Source: an uncultured Prevotellaceae bacterium (lineage in GTDB: Bacteria; Bacteroidota; Bacteroidia; Bacteroidales; Muribaculaceae). From it: DNA of 64,000 nucleotides. How positions within the stretch are numbered: position 1 is the stretch's first letter; each line of letters opens with the position of its first letter. The stretch covers positions 1 to 64,000 of the forward strand of contig CAMVAP010000005.1 of NCBI GenBank assembly GCA_947165485.1, in the 5' to 3' direction. Below are positions 3,538 through 27,898 of the stretch, piece after piece. The notes beneath the pieces are model-generated. The model saw nothing but the letters and a program-made list of their open reading frames with translations, did not search any database and was not told the DNA's origin. The position numbers and the translations under genes were made by a program.

Positions 3538-3668
3538 TTAGTTGTTAGTTGTTAGTTGTTAGTTGTTAGTTGGCATCCGCAAACTGCTAGCGCCTAAAGC
3601 CTAAAGCCTAAAACCTAGAGCCTAAAACCTAAAACCTAAAGCCTAAAACACCTAAAACCTAATGCCTT
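3538..3668 (-). repeat. TTTAGGN heptad array with conserved tail, copy 2 (inverted)
   Basis: Read on the minus strand, about ten TTTAGGN heptads follow the glyS stop. They lead into GCTAGCAGTTTGCGGATGCC and then five units of AACTAACAACTAAC type. The tail differs from copy 1 by two bases over 20. Together the two copies form an imperfect inverted repeat around the FKBP gene. Confidence 0.85.
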
Positions 3669-8636: not shown

Positions 8637-10160
8637 TTACTGGGCCTTCTCGTGCGAGAAGTAGATACCGTTGGCCAGCTGAGGTGTGCCATTGTAGGTC
8701 GATTTCACACCAATCACGCTGAGCCTGTCACCCACGGTGATACCTGCGGTAGCGAGCCAATTCTTGCGGTTCTCGCCGGTAGCACCCCAACCGGGATAGC
8801 AACCATAGACATAGACGGTGTTGGTCTCATCCTCCAGATAGAGGTTACCATAGGTAGCGTTGACAATCTCGGTAATATTACCCGTGAGCATGTAATAGAC
8901 ATCAGCGTTGTCCTCCTTGTCCAGGAACTCGTCGATGCTGATGGGGGTCACGGTCTTGCTGTCCTCCAGCGTGGAGCTTACCAGCTGGTCGGTGCCCTTA
9001 TAGACGCCACGCGTGCCCACGAGGGTAACGACGTCACCCACCTTCAGGCCTGTGGTCTCAAAGAAGCCCTTCTCGCCGATGCCATAGACATAAACCTCAC
9101 CCGACCAGTCACGGATATAAACGTTGCCATAGGTGGGATTAGCGATGCTGGTGATCACACCAGTGAGGCGATACAGCGACTTGTTGTTCTCGGTGGGCTC
9201 AAGCAGGAAGTCGGCAATCGACAATGCCTGGATCGAACCCTTCTGGCTGATTTCGGCCTCGGCGGTATAAACCTTACCATCGTCGTCGGTGGTCGAGAAG
9301 ACTACCGTAGCGGCACGGTCACCACCAGCGTTGGCAGCGGCACGGAAGGTAACTACGGGCTCTGAGCCACCCGTTACCGACACGATTGACAACCAGCTTC
9401 TCTCCTCCTCGGGAATCTCAACCGAGACACCATTGTTGGTCTTGCAGCTCAGGTTAACGGCTACCGTACCACCCTCAACGGGAATCAAGGCATCAGCGGG
9501 GTCATAACTCTCGACCTTGACCAGAGACTTCTGAATCTTGACAACGGTCACGTTAACGAGCTCAACAGTACCATTATAAACGCTCTTGGGACCCTCGACG
9601 GTAACGATGTCACCCACCTCAAGACCCAGGCTCAGGAAGTTCTTCTCATTGCCCTTGGCATCCAGGGTACCATAGATATAAATCTCACCGGTTTCGTCAC
9701 GCAGATACCAGTTACCATAGGTCGTGTTCACGATCGAGGCAACAGTACCGGTCACGCGGTAGTTCTTGCTCTCGGGACCCTCAAGAACCTCGGCACAGGT
9801 TGCGTTATGCACCACTGCGAGGCCTTGGATCACGTTGACCGTCTGTGACTTGTCGGCACATGCGATATGCAGCACGGTATTGCGGCCATCGGGGGCGGCA
9901 GGTGCGGTAAAGGTCACCTGGGTCTCGCCAGCACCGCCATTCATCGGGCTCACGGTGAGCCAGGCGGGAAGTTCGGCCTCATCAAATGACCAAGCCTCCT
10001 TGGCATTAACGGTAATTGTGTTGGAACCACCGTTTACATCGATGCTCACATAGGAGGACGAAACCTGGATTTCATCGAGCAGAGTCATTGCATTGTCGTC
10101 GGAGCAGCTTGACAGCAGGGCGACCAGTGCAAAAAACGAAAGAAAATATTTAAGTTTCAT
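8637..10160 (-). CDS. Surface lipoprotein with BACON and OB-fold (DUF5689-like) repeats
   Basis: 507 residues. The lipobox LLSSC ends at Cys19, followed by acidic SDDN, which may favour surface export in Bacteroidota. Two BACON-type Ig domains (about 31-115 and 215-310: LPAWLTVSPMNGGAGETQVTFTA; RSWLSIVSVTGGSEPVVTF) alternate with three OB-like modules (about 120-210, 315-395, 410-505) that share the pattern 'YRVTGTVASIVN.TYGN.YLRD.TGE.Y.YG ... GL.VGD.VT..G....YNGT..L'. OB folds of this type bind nucleic acid or sugar; the ligand is not evident. It lies 26 bases downstream of the Oar receptor gene, so it is probably the receptor's surface partner, as SusD-like proteins are for SusC. Confidence 0.8.
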   Translation of the reverse strand: MKLKYFLSFFALVALLSSCSDDNAMTLLDEIQVSSSYVSIDVNGGSNTITVNAKEAWSFDEAELPAWLTVSPMNGGAGETQVTFTAPAAPDGRNTVLHIACADKSQTVNVIQGLAVVHNATCAEVLEGPESKNYRVTGTVASIVNTTYGNWYLRDETGEIYIYGTLDAKGNEKNFLSLGLEVGDIVTVEGPKSVYNGTVELVNVTVVKIQKSLVKVESYDPADALIPVEGGTVAVNLSCKTNNGVSVEIPEEERSWLSIVSVTGGSEPVVTFRAAANAGGDRAATVVFSTTDDDGKVYTAEAEISQKGSIQALSIADFLLEPTENNKSLYRLTGVITSIANPTYGNVYIRDWSGEVYVYGIGEKGFFETTGLKVGDVVTLVGTRGVYKGTDQLVSSTLEDSKTVTPISIDEFLDKEDNADVYYMLTGNITEIVNATYGNLYLEDETNTVYVYGCYPGWGATGENRKNWLATAGITVGDRLSVIGVKSTYNGTPQLANGIYFSHEKAQ

Positions 10161-10186: not shown

Positions 10187-13100
10187 TTAGTTGAAGATGT
10201 ACTTAATACCGATCGAAGCATTCCAGCACTGACCGAGCGTCTTGTTGGGAACAAAGGTCTTGACGTCGCTGTTGATGGCAGGATTGGTCGAGAAGGTGGC
10301 ATAACCCTCGGCATCAACGCCCTCATACCTAAGCAGGCGGGGATCACTGCCAATCTCGGGGTTGAGATACTTGCTCACGCCCCAGCTCGAGTTGAACAGG
10401 TTCATCAGGTTCTTGATATCGAAGCTCAGCTGCAGGGTGTGCTTTGCGCCACACACGTTCAGCGAGAAGTCATGCTTGTAACTCAGGTCAACACGGTGAA
10501 CCCAGGGGCTGTACAGGCTGTAAGGCTCGGCATACTCGCCCTGGTGGTTCTTCAGGCTCTTGTTGTTGTGAACATAGTCCATGAAGCGGTTCTTGCTGTC
10601 GGTGTTGATGAAGCGGAACTCGCCGTTCTCGACCTGTGCATCGGTGGGAATGTACATGGCATCGTAGTTGTAACCGTCACCGTTCATGTCGTTGTTCATC
10701 ATGTAGGAATACTTGTAACCGCCACGCCAGGTCTCATAGATCAGGCCATAGTGGTTACCGCTCTTGTCGTGACCAGTTGCCGAGAAGACAAAACGGTCAG
10801 GAGTAACATACTGCGAGTTGTGCAGCTTGATGTTGTTGGGACCCTCGACGGTGGGAACATAGGTGAAGGCACTCTCGGCAGCACTGCCGGGCATACCAGT
10901 CACTTCCTTGTTCACGGTGTGGGTATAGGCAGCCATCAGGCTCAACCACTCAACAGGACGGGCATTCAAGGTCACGTTGGCAATCCAACCATAACCACGG
11001 CTGGTGTTCTCAAGAACGAAGGCCTTGGTACCACGACGGAAACCGGCGGGGAAGATCGGACGGTTGTCGGCACCGTTGAAGCGGGCATAACCACCCACGC
11101 CAGGCATACTCCAGTCACTGATGCTGGCAGCGTTGATGTTCTTGGTAAAGATACCCTCAACAGTCACGCTCAGGGGGAACGATACGGGCACGTTGTAGTC
11201 AACAGCCAGTGAGCTCTTCCACACCATCGGCATCTTGAACTTGGGATCTACAGCCGAGATCGATGAGGGAACGGTACCCATGTCGCTGGTCACGTTCTCG
11301 GGATAACCCATGCCGATGAGCTTGTCGCGCAGGGCGTTGATCGAGGCATTGCCATTGGCGTCGGTCACCAGACCGCCAGCAAACTGGCTCATGTCGATAT
11401 AGCGGTTACCCTTGGCATCGGTAGTGTAAGCACCACTGTAGTTCTCATAGCCACGGGTGGGAACATAATTACCATCCTTGTCGAGGCCACCGATCTTGGT
11501 GTTGCCATTGAGCTGTGCCTGATACTGTACCAGACCACCGTTGGTGGGCATGTTGGTGAAGAATACCAGAGGCAGACGACCCGAGAACAGACCCGAACCT
11601 CCACGCAGCTTGAGGGTGTTATTACCCAATACGTCCCAGCTGAAGCCCACGCGAGGTTGAACGATCAGGTTGCTGTTGGGCCACTTACCGGTGTCGATGT
11701 GACGAACGTCGCCGTTCTTGTCATAATAGTCAAGAGCCAGGATGGCATTGTTGGTGAGCAGGTCACCGTTGTTGAAGAACAGACCGTCGAGACGCAGACC
11801 ATAGGTCAACTTGAAGTTGCGGGTCACATTCCACTCGTCCTGTACATACAGGCCAGCCTTGTTGAACTGCACACGGGCAGCAGGCTTGGTCTCACTGCCG
11901 TAACCGTAGGTCAAGCAAACGACCTCGGGAACGGCGCCGTTGATAAAGTCATCCACGCTGTTGTAACGGTAGTAACCGGTACCATTGCGCATGTACTGGT
12001 TGTCGGCCATCTGGTGCTCAAAGGTGAGACCACCCATGATCTTGTGGTTACCATAGTACCAGGTAACATCGTCACGCAGGTTCCAAATGGTATTGTGAAC
12101 GGCGTTGTTCCAGGTAAACAACTCATAACCCAGAGCCATGTAGTTGTCCTTGTTGCCATACTCATCGGTCATCGTGATGTCGATGAAGGGGAACTCGCTC
12201 GAGTTGGTGGCGCGGATGTCATCCAGCTTGGAGTAAGTGGCCAGGAACTCATTAGACAGGTTGTCGGCCAGGCGGCTGTTCAAGTTAGCGGCAAACGAGT
12301 GCACCAGGTTGTCCATGCCATACATCGAGTTGGCAAACGAGAAGGAGTAGGCCGATACACGGTAGTTGGGCATACGTGTTCCACCGTCCATCGAGGTGCC
12401 GTTGGGGTTGGACCAGTAGCGGTTCTTGGTGTAGTTGTAACGCAGCGACAAGTGGTGGTCGTTGGTGATGTTCCAGTCCAAGCGGGCCAGCAACTTGTAG
12501 TTGTTCTCGTCGGCAGGGAAGCTGGTATAGGAACCCGTGTCATAACCATACTTGTTCTTCACAAAATCGCTCACGCGAGCCAGGTCGCTAAGGGTCGTGC
12601 GAGAGATATAGCGCTCATCATCGCCCACGCCGTCCTCGCTGGCGCGATAGCGGTTGACGATGGTGGGCTGCTTGGTCATTTCACCGTTGACAAAGAAGAA
12701 GATCTTGTTCTTCCAGATCGGGCCACCCAAGGTGAAGCCATAGGTAGTCACCTGATCCTTGTCGCGGGCACCTGCAATCTGGAAACGGTCAACAGCGTCA
12801 CCACGCAGGTTCTCGTTGCGGTGATAGATGTAGGCACTGCCGCGGAAGGTGTTGGTACCACTCTTGGTGATCGCGTTCACGCCACCACCGATGAAGTTGG
12901 TCTGACGCACATCATAGGGCGAAACAACCACCTGCATCTCCTCGATGGCTTCGATGCTAATGGGGTTACCACCACCGGGCAGGTTGTCGCTCAGACCAAA
13001 GTTGTTGTTGAAGTTTGCACCATCGACCGTGAAGTTGGCCAGACGACCATCGGTACCACCAAAGCTCATGCCATTGCCACCGAAGGGCGACAGACGGGTA

Positions 13101-13570
13101 ACGTCGGTCAAGCTGCGGGTAACAGTGGGCAGGTTGGTGATCTGGGTGCTGTTGATGTTAGTGGCAGCACCAGTCTTCTCGGCACGGAACTTGGTAGCCT
13201 CGCTGGTAACAACCACCTCACCCAGGGTGTTAGCGTCAACACTCATGTCCACATTCAGGTCATAGGTCTCAGCCAGTTGCAAGGTGACATCCTCAACTCG
13301 ACGAGTCTGATAACCGATGTAGCTCACCGTCACGGTGTAGGGGCCACCGGGACGCATACCCTTGATGGAGTAGCGACCGTCAATGTTAGTGACGGCGTTG
13401 TACTGAGTGCCCGAGGGCGTGTGCAAGGCGGTAATCGTTGCACCGATCATCGCCTCATGATTTTCATCGGTCACAACACCGGACAGCGCCGAAGTCGTCA
13501 CCTGGGCACTTGCCGACAATGCCACAACCAGCATTGCAACCAAGGCCAAAAGCTTAACTGTTCTCAACAT
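10187..13570 (-). CDS. Oar-type TonB-dependent outer membrane receptor
   Basis: 1127 residues. Signal peptide 1-22 (ending SASAQ) is followed by a carboxypeptidase-regulatory-like beta-sandwich at about 25-110 (SGVVTDENHEAMIGATI...DGRYSIKGMRPG). A TonB plug comes next, at about 125-240 (TRSLTDVTRLSPF, GRLANFTVDGANFNNNFG, EEMQVVVSPYDVRQTNFIGGGVNAITKSGTN). The rest is a large 22-strand-type barrel. This matches the Oar family rather than SusC. The chain ends in IKYIFN, not in the usual terminal aromatic residue. The receptor is transcribed with the OB/BACON lipoprotein and preceded by a structured leader with an intrinsic terminator, so expression is probably controlled before the coding region. 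The imported ligand is unknown. Confidence 0.9.
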   Translation of the reverse strand: MLRTVKLLALVAMLVVALSASAQVTTSALSGVVTDENHEAMIGATITALHTPSGTQYNAVTNIDGRYSIKGMRPGGPYTVTVSYIGYQTRRVEDVTLQLAETYDLNVDMSVDANTLGEVVVTSEATKFRAEKTGAATNINSTQITNLPTVTRSLTDVTRLSPFGGNGMSFGGTDGRLANFTVDGANFNNNFGLSDNLPGGGNPISIEAIEEMQVVVSPYDVRQTNFIGGGVNAITKSGTNTFRGSAYIYHRNENLRGDAVDRFQIAGARDKDQVTTYGFTLGGPIWKNKIFFFVNGEMTKQPTIVNRYRASEDGVGDDERYISRTTLSDLARVSDFVKNKYGYDTGSYTSFPADENNYKLLARLDWNITNDHHLSLRYNYTKNRYWSNPNGTSMDGGTRMPNYRVSAYSFSFANSMYGMDNLVHSFAANLNSRLADNLSNEFLATYSKLDDIRATNSSEFPFIDITMTDEYGNKDNYMALGYELFTWNNAVHNTIWNLRDDVTWYYGNHKIMGGLTFEHQMADNQYMRNGTGYYRYNSVDDFINGAVPEVVCLTYGYGSETKPAARVQFNKAGLYVQDEWNVTRNFKLTYGLRLDGLFFNNGDLLTNNAILALDYYDKNGDVRHIDTGKWPNSNLIVQPRVGFSWDVLGNNTLKLRGGSGLFSGRLPLVFFTNMPTNGGLVQYQAQLNGNTKIGGLDKDGNYVPTRGYENYSGAYTTDAKGNRYIDMSQFAGGLVTDANGNASINALRDKLIGMGYPENVTSDMGTVPSSISAVDPKFKMPMVWKSSLAVDYNVPVSFPLSVTVEGIFTKNINAASISDWSMPGVGGYARFNGADNRPIFPAGFRRGTKAFVLENTSRGYGWIANVTLNARPVEWLSLMAAYTHTVNKEVTGMPGSAAESAFTYVPTVEGPNNIKLHNSQYVTPDRFVFSATGHDKSGNHYGLIYETWRGGYKYSYMMNNDMNGDGYNYDAMYIPTDAQVENGEFRFINTDSKNRFMDYVHNNKSLKNHQGEYAEPYSLYSPWVHRVDLSYKHDFSLNVCGAKHTLQLSFDIKNLMNLFNSSWGVSKYLNPEIGSDPRLLRYEGVDAEGYATFSTNPAINSDVKTFVPNKTLGQCWNASIGIKYIFN

Positions 13571-13645
13571 ACTAATAATTTGTTTTAGTGAATGAATTAG
13601 TAATTATTAATTATTAAAAAATTGATTCATTTGATTATCATTTTT

Positions 13646-13697
13646 AAAAAAGAGTTCGCGCCACACTAGGGGTACTTCTACCTTCTAGTGTGGCGCG
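13646..13697 (-). terminator. Intrinsic terminator inside Oar leader
   Basis: Perfect 13-bp stem CGCGCCACACTAG (minus strand, 13697-13685) with CTAGTGTGGCGCG (13669-13657). The sequence GAACTC and a run of six T (13651-13646) follow. It lies upstream of the start codon, so it can only act as an attenuator of the downstream gene or as the end of a short RNA. Confidence 0.8.
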
Positions 13698-13826
13698 TGT
13701 GTCGCTAGAATCCCTCTCTTGTAACGGGTTATGAAACTGGCTTGTAGCCTCACCGCGACAAGATATCTTGAAAGGTATGCCAAAGATATGCCTCAACACT
13801 TCTTCTTGGACTCTTTTTATAAATCG
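13646..13826 (-). promoter_or_regulatory. Structured leader RNA with attenuator, copy A (Oar operon)
   Basis: The predicted 5' leader contains a block at 13749-13780 that matches the leader of the neighbouring gene at 26 of 32 positions. The block starts GCATACCTT and ends GCGGTGA, and includes a small CAAG-N4-CTTG stem. A variable region follows, then a terminator hairpin. About 75 bases separate the terminator from the ATG. The arrangement resembles a riboswitch or attenuator; it matches no class I can recognise. Confidence 0.6.
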
Positions 13827-13830
13827 AGCA

Positions 13831-13838
13831 CAAAATTA
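13831..13838 (-). promoter_or_regulatory. -7 promoter box of Oar operon
   Basis: TAATTTTG on the minus strand, fitting TAnnTTTG; predicted start near 13825, giving a leader of about 255 bases. Confidence 0.5.
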
Positions 13839-13932
13839 CTCTATTTTTTCCACCCGACCAAAAAGAATGATGAAGATTTTATTAACATCAACCGATTTAA
13901 CATTTAACATTTGGCCTACTCATGGCCATCGA

Positions 13933-15396
13933 TTACCGTGCGATGCCAAATTTCACGTCATCGAGGCACCAGGTGGCATAGTTGGCATCCTGGGTGGCTT
14001 GGTAGCGGAAGCCGATGTAATACGTTCCGTCGGCCCACTGGCTCAAGTCAATGTCGCCCGATTCACACCAGCCGCTATAAGTAGGGCCGTTAGTGGTTGG
14101 GGTAGCCAATGCGGCATCCAATTTCACCTTCACGGTCGCCGTTGCCGGGTCTAAAGAATTAAGGATATAGACTTCCAGTCGGGAAGTGGTGCTGCCATAG
14201 CCCGCCACCTCGGTGCGGAACGACAAGGTCCTGTTGACGGCATTCTTGATATCCACTGGAGGGGTGATCAACCAGGTATCAAACGGGGGCAGAGCACCCT
14301 TGTAGCCAGTCACTGCGGCATAGCCGTTCTCTTGAAATACAGTCTGGTACCATCTCTTGTCACCACTCACGATCACATTATACCAAGTCTGGGGCAACGA
14401 GACATCAAAACCTTCGTTGAGCGAGGTTACGGGGTCGGCCTCGGGCTCATGCGGAGTGATATTGCCGCCCACCACGTCATCGCGGTCACGCAGGTAGAGC
14501 CGCCATGTGGTGTTATAGCAACCCAGCACACCCACGACGTCCACCTGGCCCCACGGCAGGATGTCACCCTTGAAGTCGGCATAATTGCTGTTGTACACGA
14601 CGAGCATGTGCCCCTCATCATCAACGAGGAAACGGCTCGTTGATGATGAGGGTTCAGAGAAGGTCATCACACCGTCGGCATCCTTGAAGCTCACGTTCTT
14701 GAGTCTCACGAGCATACCCTGATACTTGAGCATGGTCGCGGCATCCGTCTTGTCGGCAATCTCTTCCAGAGTGATCTCGGTGGGCACCGCCCTCGACGGG
14801 TCGGGGTCGCCATTGAGTATCACCATCTGTTGCCACGTCTCTTGGGGCAGGAAGGTCATTTCCCATGTGTTGCCCGCTGAATACCACATCGGATATCCCA
14901 CCACTTGCATGCCGTTGAACTTACCCACCCAGTAGCCCTTGAGCGGTAGAATGAGTTCTTGCCCGATGGGGTAATCCCGGTACAGGTTATTCTTGTTGAT
15001 CGAGATGGCCAGCCCCGCACCCGACTCATCCATGATATAGAGCGTCTTGTAGATGTTGCCCGACTCGTCGCTAGACACGACCCAGCCATGGATAATCTCA
15101 TCCTGGGTGATGGTGTCGGCATAGTAGCGACCGTCCTGCCAATGCTTGGCCTTGAACTCGGCAATGCTCATGTTGGGCCCAATCACTGGCTTGACGGGGG
15201 GCTCTTCACCCATGATCACACCGAGCAGCACATTCATGTCGGCAAGATTCACCTCTCGGTCATAATTCAGATCGCCAAACGGGTACTCATCAACAATTCC
15301 CGTCGGCACGTTACGGGGCAGTCCCTGGGCAACAGCCGTCAAAGAAACACAACACAACACTACTAGCAAGACAATAAAAGATGTTTGTTTAAACAT
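13933..15396 (-). CDS. Secreted DUF5689 / choice-of-anchor-J protein with N-terminal dockerin-like repeat
   Basis: 487 residues. Signal peptide 1-24 is followed by a single calcium-loop repeat of dockerin I type (GDLNYDREVNLADMNVLLGV, about 41-60). A DUF5689 OB-like domain (about 75-180; IHGWVVSSDESGNIYKTLYIMDE, with DYPIGQELILPLKGYWVG) comes next, then a second OB-like part to about 315, and a C-terminal jelly-roll of the choice-of-anchor-J type (about 330-487; WYQTVFQENGYAAVTGYKG, DTWLITPPVDI, CLDDVKFG). Its OB modules resemble those of the lipoprotein at 8637 and its leader resembles that of the Oar operon, so the three genes probably serve one uptake or surface-capture function. No catalytic residues are recognised. 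Confidence 0.75.
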   Translation of the reverse strand: MFKQTSFIVLLVVLCCVSLTAVAQGLPRNVPTGIVDEYPFGDLNYDREVNLADMNVLLGVIMGEEPPVKPVIGPNMSIAEFKAKHWQDGRYYADTITQDEIIHGWVVSSDESGNIYKTLYIMDESGAGLAISINKNNLYRDYPIGQELILPLKGYWVGKFNGMQVVGYPMWYSAGNTWEMTFLPQETWQQMVILNGDPDPSRAVPTEITLEEIADKTDAATMLKYQGMLVRLKNVSFKDADGVMTFSEPSSSTSRFLVDDEGHMLVVYNSNYADFKGDILPWGQVDVVGVLGCYNTTWRLYLRDRDDVVGGNITPHEPEADPVTSLNEGFDVSLPQTWYNVIVSGDKRWYQTVFQENGYAAVTGYKGALPPFDTWLITPPVDIKNAVNRTLSFRTEVAGYGSTTSRLEVYILNSLDPATATVKVKLDAALATPTTNGPTYSGWCESGDIDLSQWADGTYYIGFRYQATQDANYATWCLDDVKFGIAR

Positions 15397-15452
15397 AACG
15401 AATTTTGATTTATAAAATTAATAATACAACAAATAAGAAAAGCCTAGCCCAT

Positions 15453-15501
15453 AAAAAACAGTTCGCGCCACATTAGCGGGAATCTCCGTCTAACGCAGCG
15501 C
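15453..15501 (-). terminator. Intrinsic terminator inside DUF5689 gene leader
   Basis: On the minus strand GCGCTGCGTTAG (15501-15490) pairs with CTAATGTGGCGC (15476-15465) over 12 bp, three of them G-U. It is followed by GAACTG and six T (15458-15453). Compared with copy A, four pairs differ and all remain paired, one by a full C-G to U-A exchange. Confidence 0.75.
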
Positions 15502-15626
15502 TGCCAGTGATAGCGACCTCAAGAAATCGCAGGGTTGATGATGCAAGTGCACCTCTTCACCGCCACAAGTTAACCTGTAAGGTATGCTATATATATGTAA
15601 AGACATTCTTCTTTCCTGTTATTTTG
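15453..15626 (-). promoter_or_regulatory. Structured leader RNA with attenuator, copy B
   Basis: Leader of the DUF5689 gene. A block at about 15554-15587 matches leader A (GCATACCTT, then a CAGG-N4-CTTG stem, then GCGGTGA). The terminator hairpin at the other end has the same 3' arm sequence GTGGCGCGAACT and a T6 run. The middle part differs in sequence from copy A. Confidence 0.6.
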
Positions 15627-15630
15627 CCCG

Positions 15631-15638
15631 CAAAGGTA
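15631..15638 (-). promoter_or_regulatory. -7 promoter box of DUF5689 gene
   Basis: TACCTTTG on the minus strand; leader of about 230 bases. The rest of the gap up to 15981 shows no gene or recognisable element. Confidence 0.55.
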
Positions 15639-15981: not shown

Positions 15982-17805
15982 TCATCGGGTCTTGGTCAGC
16001 AGGATGTCGATAAGACTCGTGATATCGCCCAGATCCACTTGGCCATCATCATTAGGGTCACTGGCGGGATGGGTGAGCAGCACGGGGTCCTCGGTCAAGA
16101 GACCGTCAACCAATTGAGCCACATCATCGACGCTCCATTGCGTTTCCTCGCACACGAAGGCTTCTTCACCACTGTTATAGGACAACACATTGTCACAGAA
16201 GGTGCTGCTTGACCACAGGCCATTACCGTCACCAAAGGTCGTGTTCCCCCACGTGAGGGCACTTGCCGTCGCTTTGCCTTTCACGCCACGCAACCGGTGC
16301 AGATAGGTCACCACCGTCAGCATCACTTCGCCTTCGGGCGTGTAGGAGCGATAAGGCGTGTAATTGTACCAGCAGCCACCATCATCCTTGTAGCCACACG
16401 CTTGCCATGCCCAGTCAAAGAAGCCGTTGTCCAGCACGATGCGGTTGCATCCACCCATGTTATAGAGGTTCCACACCATCACCGTGTCCTCCTGCTGCTC
16501 GATGTAAACTTGAGCAAACCGCTGATTGAATGGGATAACCGTGGGGTCAATGAAGGAATTGCCACCTGGTGCAATGTTTGCCATCGGCGAGACTGTTCCT
16601 GGATCGGGTTCTGGTGGCGTGCTGCAGCGATGCGTTCCATTGGGCTTGGCCAGTACCATGTTGCGGTAAAGCTGAGTGGATTGTGTCGTGCTTGTCGACA
16701 CCACCTTGTTGGTCATGGTATTGACAACGGTCACTTCCCTCACACTTGTGACAACAAAGTCATCAAACGCTATTGACCCATCGGCTCGAATGCGGCCCTC
16801 CACATCGTAGGGACCATGCTGCAAGTCGTCCAGGCACTCGGCGCCATCGAGGTAATAACGGGTCACTGTGGTGGTCTTCAGGGATCCATCGATTGACGTA
16901 GCAGTCTCCTGGGAACTGTTATAGTACATCCGCGCCGTCATGTTATCCCGGTCAACCATCATGTACATGAGGCCATTGTGCCAATTCAAGACAATCGATC
17001 CTCCCGCGTCTTGGCAAGTGGCAAGGTGACCACACCGCGAGGGCTGAGCGGGTGTCAACTCATACTCTCCTTCTCTCTCCCCCTTCTCCACATCTAACAC
17101 ATCGGCCATGCACATCAGGTAATAGTTTCTCTCGCTGGGTGTCGCCATGCCATACAACTTGATGATAATATCGTTGGCATAATGGCTCCACACCAGAATC
17201 GTGGTCGTGTCGCAACCCACCTCTTGGGGACGATAGAATACCGTGACCGTAGTGGTGTCGCCCGTCTGGTTGAGCGGGATGCTGGTCCTGTCGAGGCTGA
17301 AGGCGCCCGATGGATGGTCCTCAAGAATCAGCCAAATGCTCTCCTCCAGGTTGCCACCCGTGACATTAAAAGTCGCCGAGGCTATGCCTTCTGAAGGGCA
17401 AGTCAAGTAAAGCTCCGTCGTGTCGGTGACAATGTAGGGCAATGCGGCGGTAGTTCCCTTCAATAGCACAGAGCCCTTCACCTCGCTTGATGTGATCCAG
17501 ATGCGGCCTTCATACTCGCCGTCGGCCATGGGCGCATAACGCACCTTGACAGTCACACCAGCCATGGCCTCCTGGGCTGTGATGGTCGTTCTGTCCATCA
17601 TGAAGGTGTGGGTGTCACCAAACATCGTGAGCGTCAAGTCCTCGGTCAAATCGGTAGCGCTTACAGTGAATGACTGATAATAAGAACGTCCAGTCTCACA
17701 CTCATAGATCAACCTCTCGGGGTGAACTGTTAGCGTTGGCGCTGCCCAAGCAGGAAAGACAGCGACCCACATCAGGGCACAAAATAAGAACGTTAACCTT
17801 TTCAT
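15982..17805 (-). CDS. Secreted protein with Ig-like repeats and C-terminal dockerin-like motif
   Basis: 607 residues. Signal peptide 1-21 (ending AWAAP). Two to three Ig-like beta domains follow (about 22-105, 106-205; 'LTVHPERLIYECETG', 'ITAQEAMAGVTVKVRYAPMADGEYEGRIWITS'), of the choice-of-anchor-D type used as spacers in surface proteins. A beta-rich region of unknown type at about 210-530 includes WNLYNMGGCNRIVLDNGFFDWAWQ split across strands. The end (about 578-607) has one dockerin-type calcium loop, DPNDDGQVDLGDITSLIDILL. No enzyme domain is recognised. It has its own promoter (17938-17945) and lacks the shared leader of its neighbours, so it may belong to a different regulon. Confidence 0.7.
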   Translation of the reverse strand: MKRLTFLFCALMWVAVFPAWAAPTLTVHPERLIYECETGRSYYQSFTVSATDLTEDLTLTMFGDTHTFMMDRTTITAQEAMAGVTVKVRYAPMADGEYEGRIWITSSEVKGSVLLKGTTAALPYIVTDTTELYLTCPSEGIASATFNVTGGNLEESIWLILEDHPSGAFSLDRTSIPLNQTGDTTTVTVFYRPQEVGCDTTTILVWSHYANDIIIKLYGMATPSERNYYLMCMADVLDVEKGEREGEYELTPAQPSRCGHLATCQDAGGSIVLNWHNGLMYMMVDRDNMTARMYYNSSQETATSIDGSLKTTTVTRYYLDGAECLDDLQHGPYDVEGRIRADGSIAFDDFVVTSVREVTVVNTMTNKVVSTSTTQSTQLYRNMVLAKPNGTHRCSTPPEPDPGTVSPMANIAPGGNSFIDPTVIPFNQRFAQVYIEQQEDTVMVWNLYNMGGCNRIVLDNGFFDWAWQACGYKDDGGCWYNYTPYRSYTPEGEVMLTVVTYLHRLRGVKGKATASALTWGNTTFGDGNGLWSSSTFCDNVLSYNSGEEAFVCEETQWSVDDVAQLVDGLLTEDPVLLTHPASDPNDDGQVDLGDITSLIDILLTKTR

Positions 17806-18106: not shown

Positions 18107-18673
18107 TCATTTCTTCACCCGGTCAGGATGCTGCGCGATGAAGGATTTCCAGGATTTACTGCCCTTGCCCTGAAAAGGCTTGTTGCGCTCATAGAAGTGG
18201 CACAGCGCGGCTGCCAAAGCATCGGTGGCATCGAGCAGAGCGGGCATCTCTGCCTCAGCAATGCCCAGCGTGCGTTGCACCATCAGCGCCACTTGTTCCT
18301 TGCTGGCAGCGCCATTGCCTGTGATGGCCATCTTAATCTTGCGGGGCTCATACTCTGTGATGGGGATTTCCCTGTTGAGCGCGGCGACCATCGCCACTCC
18401 CTGGGCACGACCCAACTTGAGCATCGACTGCACGTTCTTGCCGTAGAATGGCGCCTCAATCGCCATCTCGTCGGGCAGGTATTCGTCAATCACGCCGCTC
18501 ACCCGCTCATAGATATGCCGCAGTCGCATGTAGTGATCCTCCATGCGGTTGAGCCGCAGCACGCCCATGACGATGAGTTCGGGCTTCTTGCCGTTCACCC
18601 CCAGCAGGGCATAACCCATGACATTGGTCCCCGGGTCAATACCGATAATGATATTCTCGTACTGCTTCTCCAT
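18107..18673 (-). CDS. ruvC: Crossover junction endodeoxyribonuclease RuvC
   Basis: 188 residues. RuvC resolves Holliday junctions by symmetric cleavage during recombination repair. The acidic catalytic set is present: D in [15 protein letters not shown] near the N-terminus, E in [11 protein letters not shown], and the DD pair region [14 protein letters not shown] near the C-terminus. The start ATG at 18673 follows a -7 box at 18683-18690 by only a few bases, so the mRNA would be leaderless or nearly so; a TTG four codons upstream lies inside the promoter box region and is unlikely. The C-terminal extension [19 protein letters not shown] is basic. Confidence 0.93.
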
Positions 18674-18682
18674 CACTGACCG

Positions 18683-18690
18683 CAAAATTA
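18683..18690 (-). promoter_or_regulatory. -7 promoter box of ruvC
   Basis: TAATTTTG on the minus strand, ending 10 bases upstream of the ATG. With the usual spacing the transcript would begin about five bases before the start codon. Confidence 0.45.
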
Positions 18691-27827: not shown

Positions 27828-27841
27828 TATTGATCCAAACC

Positions 27842-27898
27842 CCTAAAACCTAAAGCCTAAAACCTAAAGCCTAAAGCCTAAAACCTAAAACCTAAAAT
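27842..27898 (-). repeat. TTTAGGN heptad array, copy 3
   Basis: About eight imperfect heptads, read as TTTAGG on the minus strand. The array begins inside the last codons of the upstream TPR gene, supplying its terminal Arg-Phe and stop, and runs to 15 bases before the tamL start. The GCTAG tail of copies 1 and 2 is missing. Confidence 0.8.

Follow-up and report, generated by a model that had tools for sequence, protein, structure and literature searches.

Twin leaders of Oar-like and DUF5689 genes in an uncultured Bacteroidales bacterium: conserved small ORFs that run into terminator-like hairpins, and a candidate case of translation-coupled attenuation

Twin leaders and their neighboring genes

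The window analyzed here is the whole 64,000-nucleotide stretch of contig CAMVAP010000005.1. From high to low coordinates, its minus strand carries ruvC (18107-18685), a gene (15982-17805) whose product weakly matches choice-of-anchor-D, a gene assigned by domain match to a DUF5689 and choice-of-anchor J surface protein (13933..15396), a gene for an Oar-like outer-membrane beta-barrel with a CarboxypepD_reg domain (10187..13570; PF25183, PF13620) and, directly 3' of Oar, a gene for a BACON-domain protein (8637..10160, domain match). The spacing suggests that the BACON gene is probably co-transcribed with Oar. Two similar leaders precede the Oar gene (leader A) and the DUF5689 gene (leader B), which are their presumed targets.

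These twin leaders had been noticed in a preliminary description of the DNA, and they proved to be real, with terminator-like hairpins that covary across the genus. Their shared block spans 13750-13780 in leader A, where it falls inside codons 7-17 of the ORF described below, and 15557-15587 in leader B (both minus strand); 26 of the 31 bases are identical and 5 differ. A pattern search allowing up to 3 mismatches found only the two known copies in the window, the same two in the genome of this organism, and none in 100 shuffles. Both leaders end in the same hairpin arm core followed by U6, GTGGCGCGAACTNTTTTTT, at 13646-13664 and at 15453-15471. Fold and stem covariation place hairpin A at 13657..13697 (-), followed after a 5-nt spacer (AACUC) by its U6 run at 13646..13651 (-), and hairpin B at 15465..15501 (-), followed after a 6-nt spacer by its U6 run at 15453..15458 (-). 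As had been described, the two stems differ at 4 pairs, all of which remain paired, one by a double change from C-G to U-A. The small CARG-N4-CUUG stem proposed within the block can be drawn, but it sits inside conserved codons and is without independent support, and its CUUG is also part of a longer possible helix.

Each leader ORF is preceded by a promoter-like box of the form TAnnTTTG, which we take to be the -7 promoter element of Bacteroidota: TAATTTTG at 13831..13838 (-) for the Oar leader and TACCTTTG at 15631..15638 (-) for the DUF5689 leader. This box was invariant upstream of the leader ORF in 29 of 29 aligned leaders. A point that goes beyond the preliminary description is that the whole conserved stretch of the leader is an ORF running into the hairpin. 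ORF A (13644..13799, minus strand; GTG start, 51 codons, VLRHIFGIPFKISCRGEATSQFHNPLQERDSSDTRATLEGRSTPSVARTLF) overlaps hairpin A, and its TAA overlaps the end of the U-run; it was identified by translation and by the codon-position test given below. ORF B (15490..15606, minus strand; ATG start, 38 codons, MSLHIYSIPYRLTCGGEEVHLHHQPCDFLRSLSLAALR), identified by translation, ends with a TAG in the 5' arm of hairpin B. The distance from start codon to hairpin was 102 and 105 nt in the window and 98-115 nt among the leaders as a whole. A possible helix, P1, lies inside ORF A at 13718..13762 (-), where CUUGUCGCGG could pair with CCGUUACAAG; pairing across leaders makes it a candidate pause hairpin. 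DUF5689-leader peptides (for example MSKQTHSLPFLI... and MLLHIHSIPLSITCGG...) resemble those of the Oar leaders, which makes common descent of the twin leaders probable.

Leader classes within the genus and Oar loci outside it

Allowing up to 3 mismatches, the block pattern was present in 28 of the 101 genomes from the same genus, singly except in the window's own genome, which has two copies, and a reversed control pattern had no match in the same 101 genomes. A guessed pattern for the common hairpin core found no match in the window's own genome, and a covariance model was used instead. At E 0.01, this model, built from 32 leaders, matched in 44 of the 101 genomes. The full-length matches below E 1e-12 comprised 39 leaders in 39 of the 101 genomes, all before Oar, and 11 second full-length copies, all 11 of which precede a DUF5689 gene. 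The DUF5689 neighbors were read directly for the window and five further loci; in the remaining five, the downstream protein was recognized by 47-70% identity over 250-491 residues to the window protein. The window's own genome holds exactly two leader copies; a third listed model match is the hairpin itself, read on the other strand. Lower-scoring model matches were not counted (other-strand hairpins, G039, G051, G058:C48, G074:C1, G075, G077, G079:C15 and G080); on inspection, G075 proved to be an Oar leader from a different class, and G080 no leader at all. The earlier proposal that these leaders are cis-regulatory, have an attenuator-like hairpin and occur in further copies before similar genes was supported, and the covariance search suggested at the time did find further copies in the genus, before Oar and DUF5689 genes.

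We also took 28 same-genus genomes that lacked a strict block-pattern match, 4 of which had already been matched by a peptide search. The Oar N-terminus was matched in all 28, closely (E 1e-66 or better) in 27. Six of these 27 genomes carry a divergent leader of the kind described so far (clade 1), and 12 carry a different leader (clade 2), with the peptide M(A/K)LLQFFIFDxHxPGSQTYTAGDLISHS followed by a hairpin, CACACCGCTATTAG..CTAATAACGGTGTG, and then a U-run. These 12, together with 4 from a further Oar search, formed the clade 2 test set (n = 16). Another 4 Oar matches came without a locus, and only that of G075 was examined later (L210). Several loci near contig ends were read by eye and stand outside all counts: L159 has a seventeenth leader of clade 2, its stop falling in the hairpin; both L150 and L151 carry a leader of another kind, with an ORF that runs into a hairpin; L156 is without a promoter-like box; and L155 is without upstream bases. 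By eye, no leader hairpin was seen before the same-genus Oar genes L101, L102, L105, L152-154, L168, L169 and L171, and none of three loci of the choice-of-anchor-D-like gene had such a leader.

Outside the genus, 33 Oar loci (4 from the family and 29 from the order, taken from the top matches of each search, 30 at most) had no promoter-ORF-hairpin leader by eye or scan. At a distance of about 190 bases or more 5' of Oar, six of the outside loci (L115, L117, L119, L121, L124 and L134) do have a hairpin with a U-tail; these hairpins lie beyond the nearest promoter-like box, where one is present, and were taken as the end of the previous gene. A peptide alignment search across the family matched 21 of 297 genomes; three of these lie outside the genus, with E values of 0.001-0.009 only, and in one of the three the match contains an internal stop. 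Because the leader is absent from the outside loci sampled, the element appears to be bound to the genus as far as sampled.

Coding signature and overlap of the ORF with the hairpin

Translation of the block-pattern copies gave, in a single frame, the clade 1 peptide MxxHxFGIPFRITCSGEAASQFYNPLQER. Parsimony on the Oar-gene tree, with 39 leaders including the divergent copies and one leader per genome, assigned 114, 95 and 208 changes to positions 1, 2 and 3 of codons 2-28 (chi-square p 3.6e-12). The ratio of amino-acid to codon changes was 0.59 in frame, compared to 0.83 and 0.88 for the two other frames. In the 15 codons of the hairpin region, mismatch rates were flat by codon position (.31,.30 and.28; 28 leaders); the codon signal thus vanishes past the conserved part of the ORF, whereas the RNA pairing stays. 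The third-position bias indicates that the conserved block is the start of a small coding ORF. These data suggest that the leader ORF is under coding selection, and we presume that it is translated. The leader peptides hit no Pfam family among 27 members, and a single member of the 27 matched an unrelated family in NCBIfam, at E 0.082.

The clade 2 leaders behaved likewise. Codons 2-26 had 73, 55 and 100 changes at the three positions (p 0.0012) and a ratio of 0.66 versus 0.85 and 0.93 in the other frames; in codons 27-33 the signal was gone (37, 37 and 38 changes). The p value depends on the choice of start, being 0.0012 with the conserved ATG throughout and 0.17 when upstream ATGs were used in 4 of the 16. 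Judged by these codon patterns, two peptides of little similarity follow one partition, with a coding N-terminal part, a non-coding remainder, and a stop in or past the hairpin.

The reach of the ORFs was scored as an ORF of at least 20 codons extending to the hairpin, and the expectation was obtained by dinucleotide-shuffling the stretch 5' of the hairpin 300 times for each leader. With ATG, GTG or TTG starts, all 39 clade 1 leaders had such an ORF (12.4 expected). With ATG starts alone the count was 24 of 39 (5.8 expected); the other 15, ORF A included, reach the hairpin only from GTG or TTG. ATG-started ORFs reached the hairpin in 16 of 16 clade 2 leaders (3.4 expected), and an ORF did so in 6 of 6 DUF5689 leaders (1.8 expected), with 5 of 5 further ones in agreement (11/11). 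In a mixed bag of other leader classes the figure was 9 of 12 scored (2.8 expected), out of 17; L158 and L161-163, which are without a promoter-like box 5' of the hairpin, and L100, where none was found, were left out. One additional Oar leader also has an ORF that reaches its hairpin. Hairpin borders were set by hand in 10 leaders (L007, L014, L085, L089, L094, L103, L148, L149, L164 and L172). The shuffles take leaders as independent and ignore relatedness within a class, but classes with dissimilar peptides agree, and that agreement between classes is independent of relatedness. Four clade 1 leaders (L020, L026, L029 and L030) have indels past the core, and their ORFs are open to the hairpin nonetheless. 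Stops in clade 2 fall 11-28 nt inside the hairpin, with 10 leaders in one frame relative to the hairpin and 6 in another. The end point of the ORF is conserved, and its frame is not.

Pairing was assessed in 29 leaders, leader B included for the hairpin. Double-sided changes were found in 7 of 12 pairs of the hairpin's outer stem. The helix within the ORF (CUUGUAGCGG with CCGCUGCAAG) was paired in 95.2% of cells, and in clade 1 none of the 10 pairs of P1 had a double change; the clade 2 counterpart of P1 had two pairs with one double change each. A U-run of at least 4 within 13 nt followed the hairpin in 37 of 39 clade 1, 15 of 16 clade 2 and 5 of 6 DUF5689 leaders (57 of 61 in total). In most leaders a spacer of about 2-6 nt separates hairpin and U-run, which departs from the canonical terminator, and a simple terminator scan of the window listed neither leader hairpin. 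A U-run was present at only 2 of 35 listed gene-end hairpins in the window, which makes use of intrinsic terminators by this organism uncertain.

Candidate mechanism, alternatives and related systems

We propose, with a probability of roughly two in three, that the twin leaders are translation-coupled transcription attenuators of the pyrBI kind. Transcription would begin just 3' of the TAnnTTTG box, and the short leader ORF with its conserved N-terminal peptide would be translated. This ORF enters, and in most clade 1 Oar leaders crosses, a G+C-rich hairpin that a U-run follows. A ribosome close behind RNA polymerase would cover the 5' arm of the hairpin, leaving the terminator unfolded and the Oar or DUF5689 gene transcribed. 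If the ribosome did not start, stalled in the conserved N-terminal part, or lagged, the hairpin would fold and transcription would stop. In E. coli, termination efficiency fell from about 90% to less than 10% when a stop codon was relocated to 5 bp before the terminator, and the effect was lost once translation was uncoupled (PMC4824070). The same paper states that a terminator less than 100 bp into a coding region is hardly repressed by ribosomes unless special pausing helps, and it names pyrBI as a short leader in which pausing couples the ribosome (PMC4824070). Given such weak repression within the first 100 bp and the 98-115 nt between start codon and hairpin, a pause would be needed here; helix P1 may be the pause site.

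The preliminary description had read the leaders as a riboswitch or attenuator and proposed one ligand for all three surface genes, a shared signal that is hypothetical here. In a riboswitch, the block would be the aptamer, the hairpin the expression platform, and the ORF incidental. Conserved sequence 5' of a covarying hairpin fits that reading, as do the fold of leader A, which is predicted to be strong (z -5.86), and the nearly invariant third positions of codons 8, 12 and 13, a constraint beyond the amino acid. However, leader B folds weakly (z -1.46), the start codon is conserved, and another group of the genus swaps the block for a different peptide while retaining the ORF-hairpin layout. 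The third-position bias with in-frame conservation of amino acids, the absence of double changes in the upstream helix of clade 1, and the overlap of ORF and hairpin together point to ribosome-mediated attenuation. The description's view that the leaders fit no recognized class was supported: at gathering scores Rfam gave no leader match (the sole match in the window was a tRNA elsewhere), at E values up to 5 it gave nothing credible for the leaders, merely implausible plant miRNAs and snoRNAs, and the leaders of ten relatives had no match. No report of such a leader was found in the open-access literature, subscription papers and preprints being outside the scope of that search. A metabolite-binding RNA is improbable, and the one-ligand riboswitch is not supported.

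Two further explanations keep the ORF and assign it a different part. The leader could be a small-protein gene with its own terminator, its peptide acting in trans and the downstream gene being served by read-through; a conserved peptide core and the presence of one leader for each target gene would suit this. Yet the C-terminal third is unconserved and tolerant of frame, the ORF enters or crosses the hairpin rather than stopping 5' of it, and none of the 39 clade 1 leaders has a TAnnTTTG box between hairpin and Oar, and we consider a trans-acting peptide unlikely. Alternatively, the ORF could work by translational or Rho-linked control (masking of Rho sites, re-initiation, or mRNA stability), with a hairpin that is not an intrinsic terminator. 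This would account for the spacer between hairpin and U-run, for the scarcity of U-tailed hairpins at gene ends, and for the clade 1 ORFs that stay open into Oar (5/39) or stop 4 bases past the Oar start (3/39), and an E. coli uORF with Rho termination offers a precedent (PMC12121999). Retention of the U-run in 57 of 61 leaders and the clustering of clade 2 and DUF5689 stops within the hairpin argue against it, and we regard control of this type as doubtful.

What a translation-coupled attenuator of this kind might sense is suggested by its codons. Of the 606 Ile codons in 18 window genes, 5% are AUA; the leader cores use AUA for 90 of 101 Ile codons in clade 1 and for 29 of 39 in clade 2. At codon 8, AUA occurs in 36 of 39 clade 1 and 16 of 16 clade 2 leaders, and at codon 12 in 37 of 39. 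Third-position changes numbered 1 at codon 8 and 0 at codon 12, with up to 15 at other core codons. Codon 13, mostly ACU and not an Ile codon, also had 0, so an RNA constraint on this stretch would explain the AUA conservation as well. The cores also have a higher A+T content than the genes (G+C 45% and 41% versus 55%), and the AUA counts come from few sites in related sequences. Slow decoding at the conserved rare AUA codons, or stalling by the nascent peptide, is a candidate signal, offered as a lead and not as a result.

In E. coli, the pyrL ORF overlaps its terminator. Tight coupling of ribosome and polymerase over the pyrL leader peptide blocks terminator formation at pyrBI (PMC5021804; PMC4824070), and coupling across the leader peptide would similarly keep the window's terminators from forming. 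The window leaders differ in having outer-surface targets and a conserved N-terminal peptide, with no link to UTP shown. Leader-peptide attenuators of the trp/his type, which include the Bacteroid-trp family of Rfam, have a translated leader and a terminator hairpin in common with the window leaders; the latter, however, are without a run of codons for a single amino acid or a biosynthetic operon, their ORF enters the hairpin, and they have no Rfam match. To our knowledge, the regulatory leader peptides of gut Bacteroidota are poorly charted, and few studies have addressed how ribosome and polymerase are coupled in these bacteria. In Bacteroides thetaiotaomicron, small ORFs that lie within long 5' UTRs are called reminiscent of attenuation leader peptides in the available text of PMC7366714; the example given there, BT_4401, awaits validation, and that text describes no terminator overlap or conserved family. 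For Flavobacterium psychrophilum, of the same phylum as the window organism, PMC9723704 proposes leader-peptide attenuation before amino-acid biosynthesis operons, whereas the targets here are surface genes. If surface barrels are indeed preceded by a conserved ORF-over-terminator leader, coupling would become testable in gut Bacteroidota, and outer-membrane proteins would join the targets of leader-peptide attenuation. Two dissimilar conserved peptides within one layout would represent quick turnover, an attenuator evolving while its architecture is retained.

The downstream genes offer a lead as to function. A transposon screen in Riemerella anatipestifer found that natural transformation needs adjacent genes for a DUF5689/choice-of-anchor-J protein and an outer-membrane protein with a carboxypeptidase-regulatory domain (PMC8459023). 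The DUF5689-Oar pair of the window is also adjacent and has the same domains, and may resemble the Riemerella pair; this likeness is one of domains and adjacency, and both families are large. Against the NCBIfam subfamily M949_1556, the window DUF5689 protein scored 190 bits, below the cut-off of 475 bits, and Oar-like proteins and their BACON neighbors may serve quite different roles. If the pair does correspond to the DNA-uptake pair, the leader would be a handle on the control of uptake. The fullest version of this idea, in which genus-specific translated attenuators read AUA decoding speed or nascent-peptide arrest and switch an outer-membrane DNA-uptake pair, so that competence is controlled by ribosome coupling, is a long shot. 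The Oar leader (28 loci) is shared by metagenome assemblies that bear the labels Prevotellaceae, Muribaculaceae, Porphyromonadaceae or simply Bacteroidales, and many of these leader-carrying relatives originate from the rumen or another ruminant gut, RUG standing for rumen genomes.

Oar leaders with other peptides

Further leader loci upstream of Oar genes in the same genus (L103, L170, L104, L210, L148, L149, L164, L172, L173, L150, and L151) carried differing peptides. The leader ORF in these loci ended at or overlapped a hairpin, as it does in the main leader classes. Short motifs were shared pairwise by some of them, for example FI.IR in L103 and L170.

Leader ORFs and the Oar start codon

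In 5 leaders upstream of Oar (L004, L009, L010, L012, and L021), the leader ORF had no stop and ran in frame into the start codon of Oar. In three others (L006, L023, and L028), the leader ORF stopped 4 bases beyond the start of Oar. These extensions may be due to chance. The assembly of L007 has AAG in place of the conserved ATG start of Oar; this could be a sequencing error, or Oar could start at another codon.

The gene pair and its surroundings

Natural transformation of Riemerella anatipestifer requires two neighboring genes (PMC8459023), and their DUF5689/choice-of-anchor-J and CarboxypepD_reg barrel domains are also those of the window pair (13933-15396 and 10187-13570, minus strand). 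A ruvC homologue was located within 3 kb upstream in 21 of 28 related loci.

Arrays of a TTTAGGC/TTTAGGT-like heptamer lie immediately 3' of several window genes, at about 2814-2864, 3588-3645, and 27834-27882, and were picked up as hairpin candidates.
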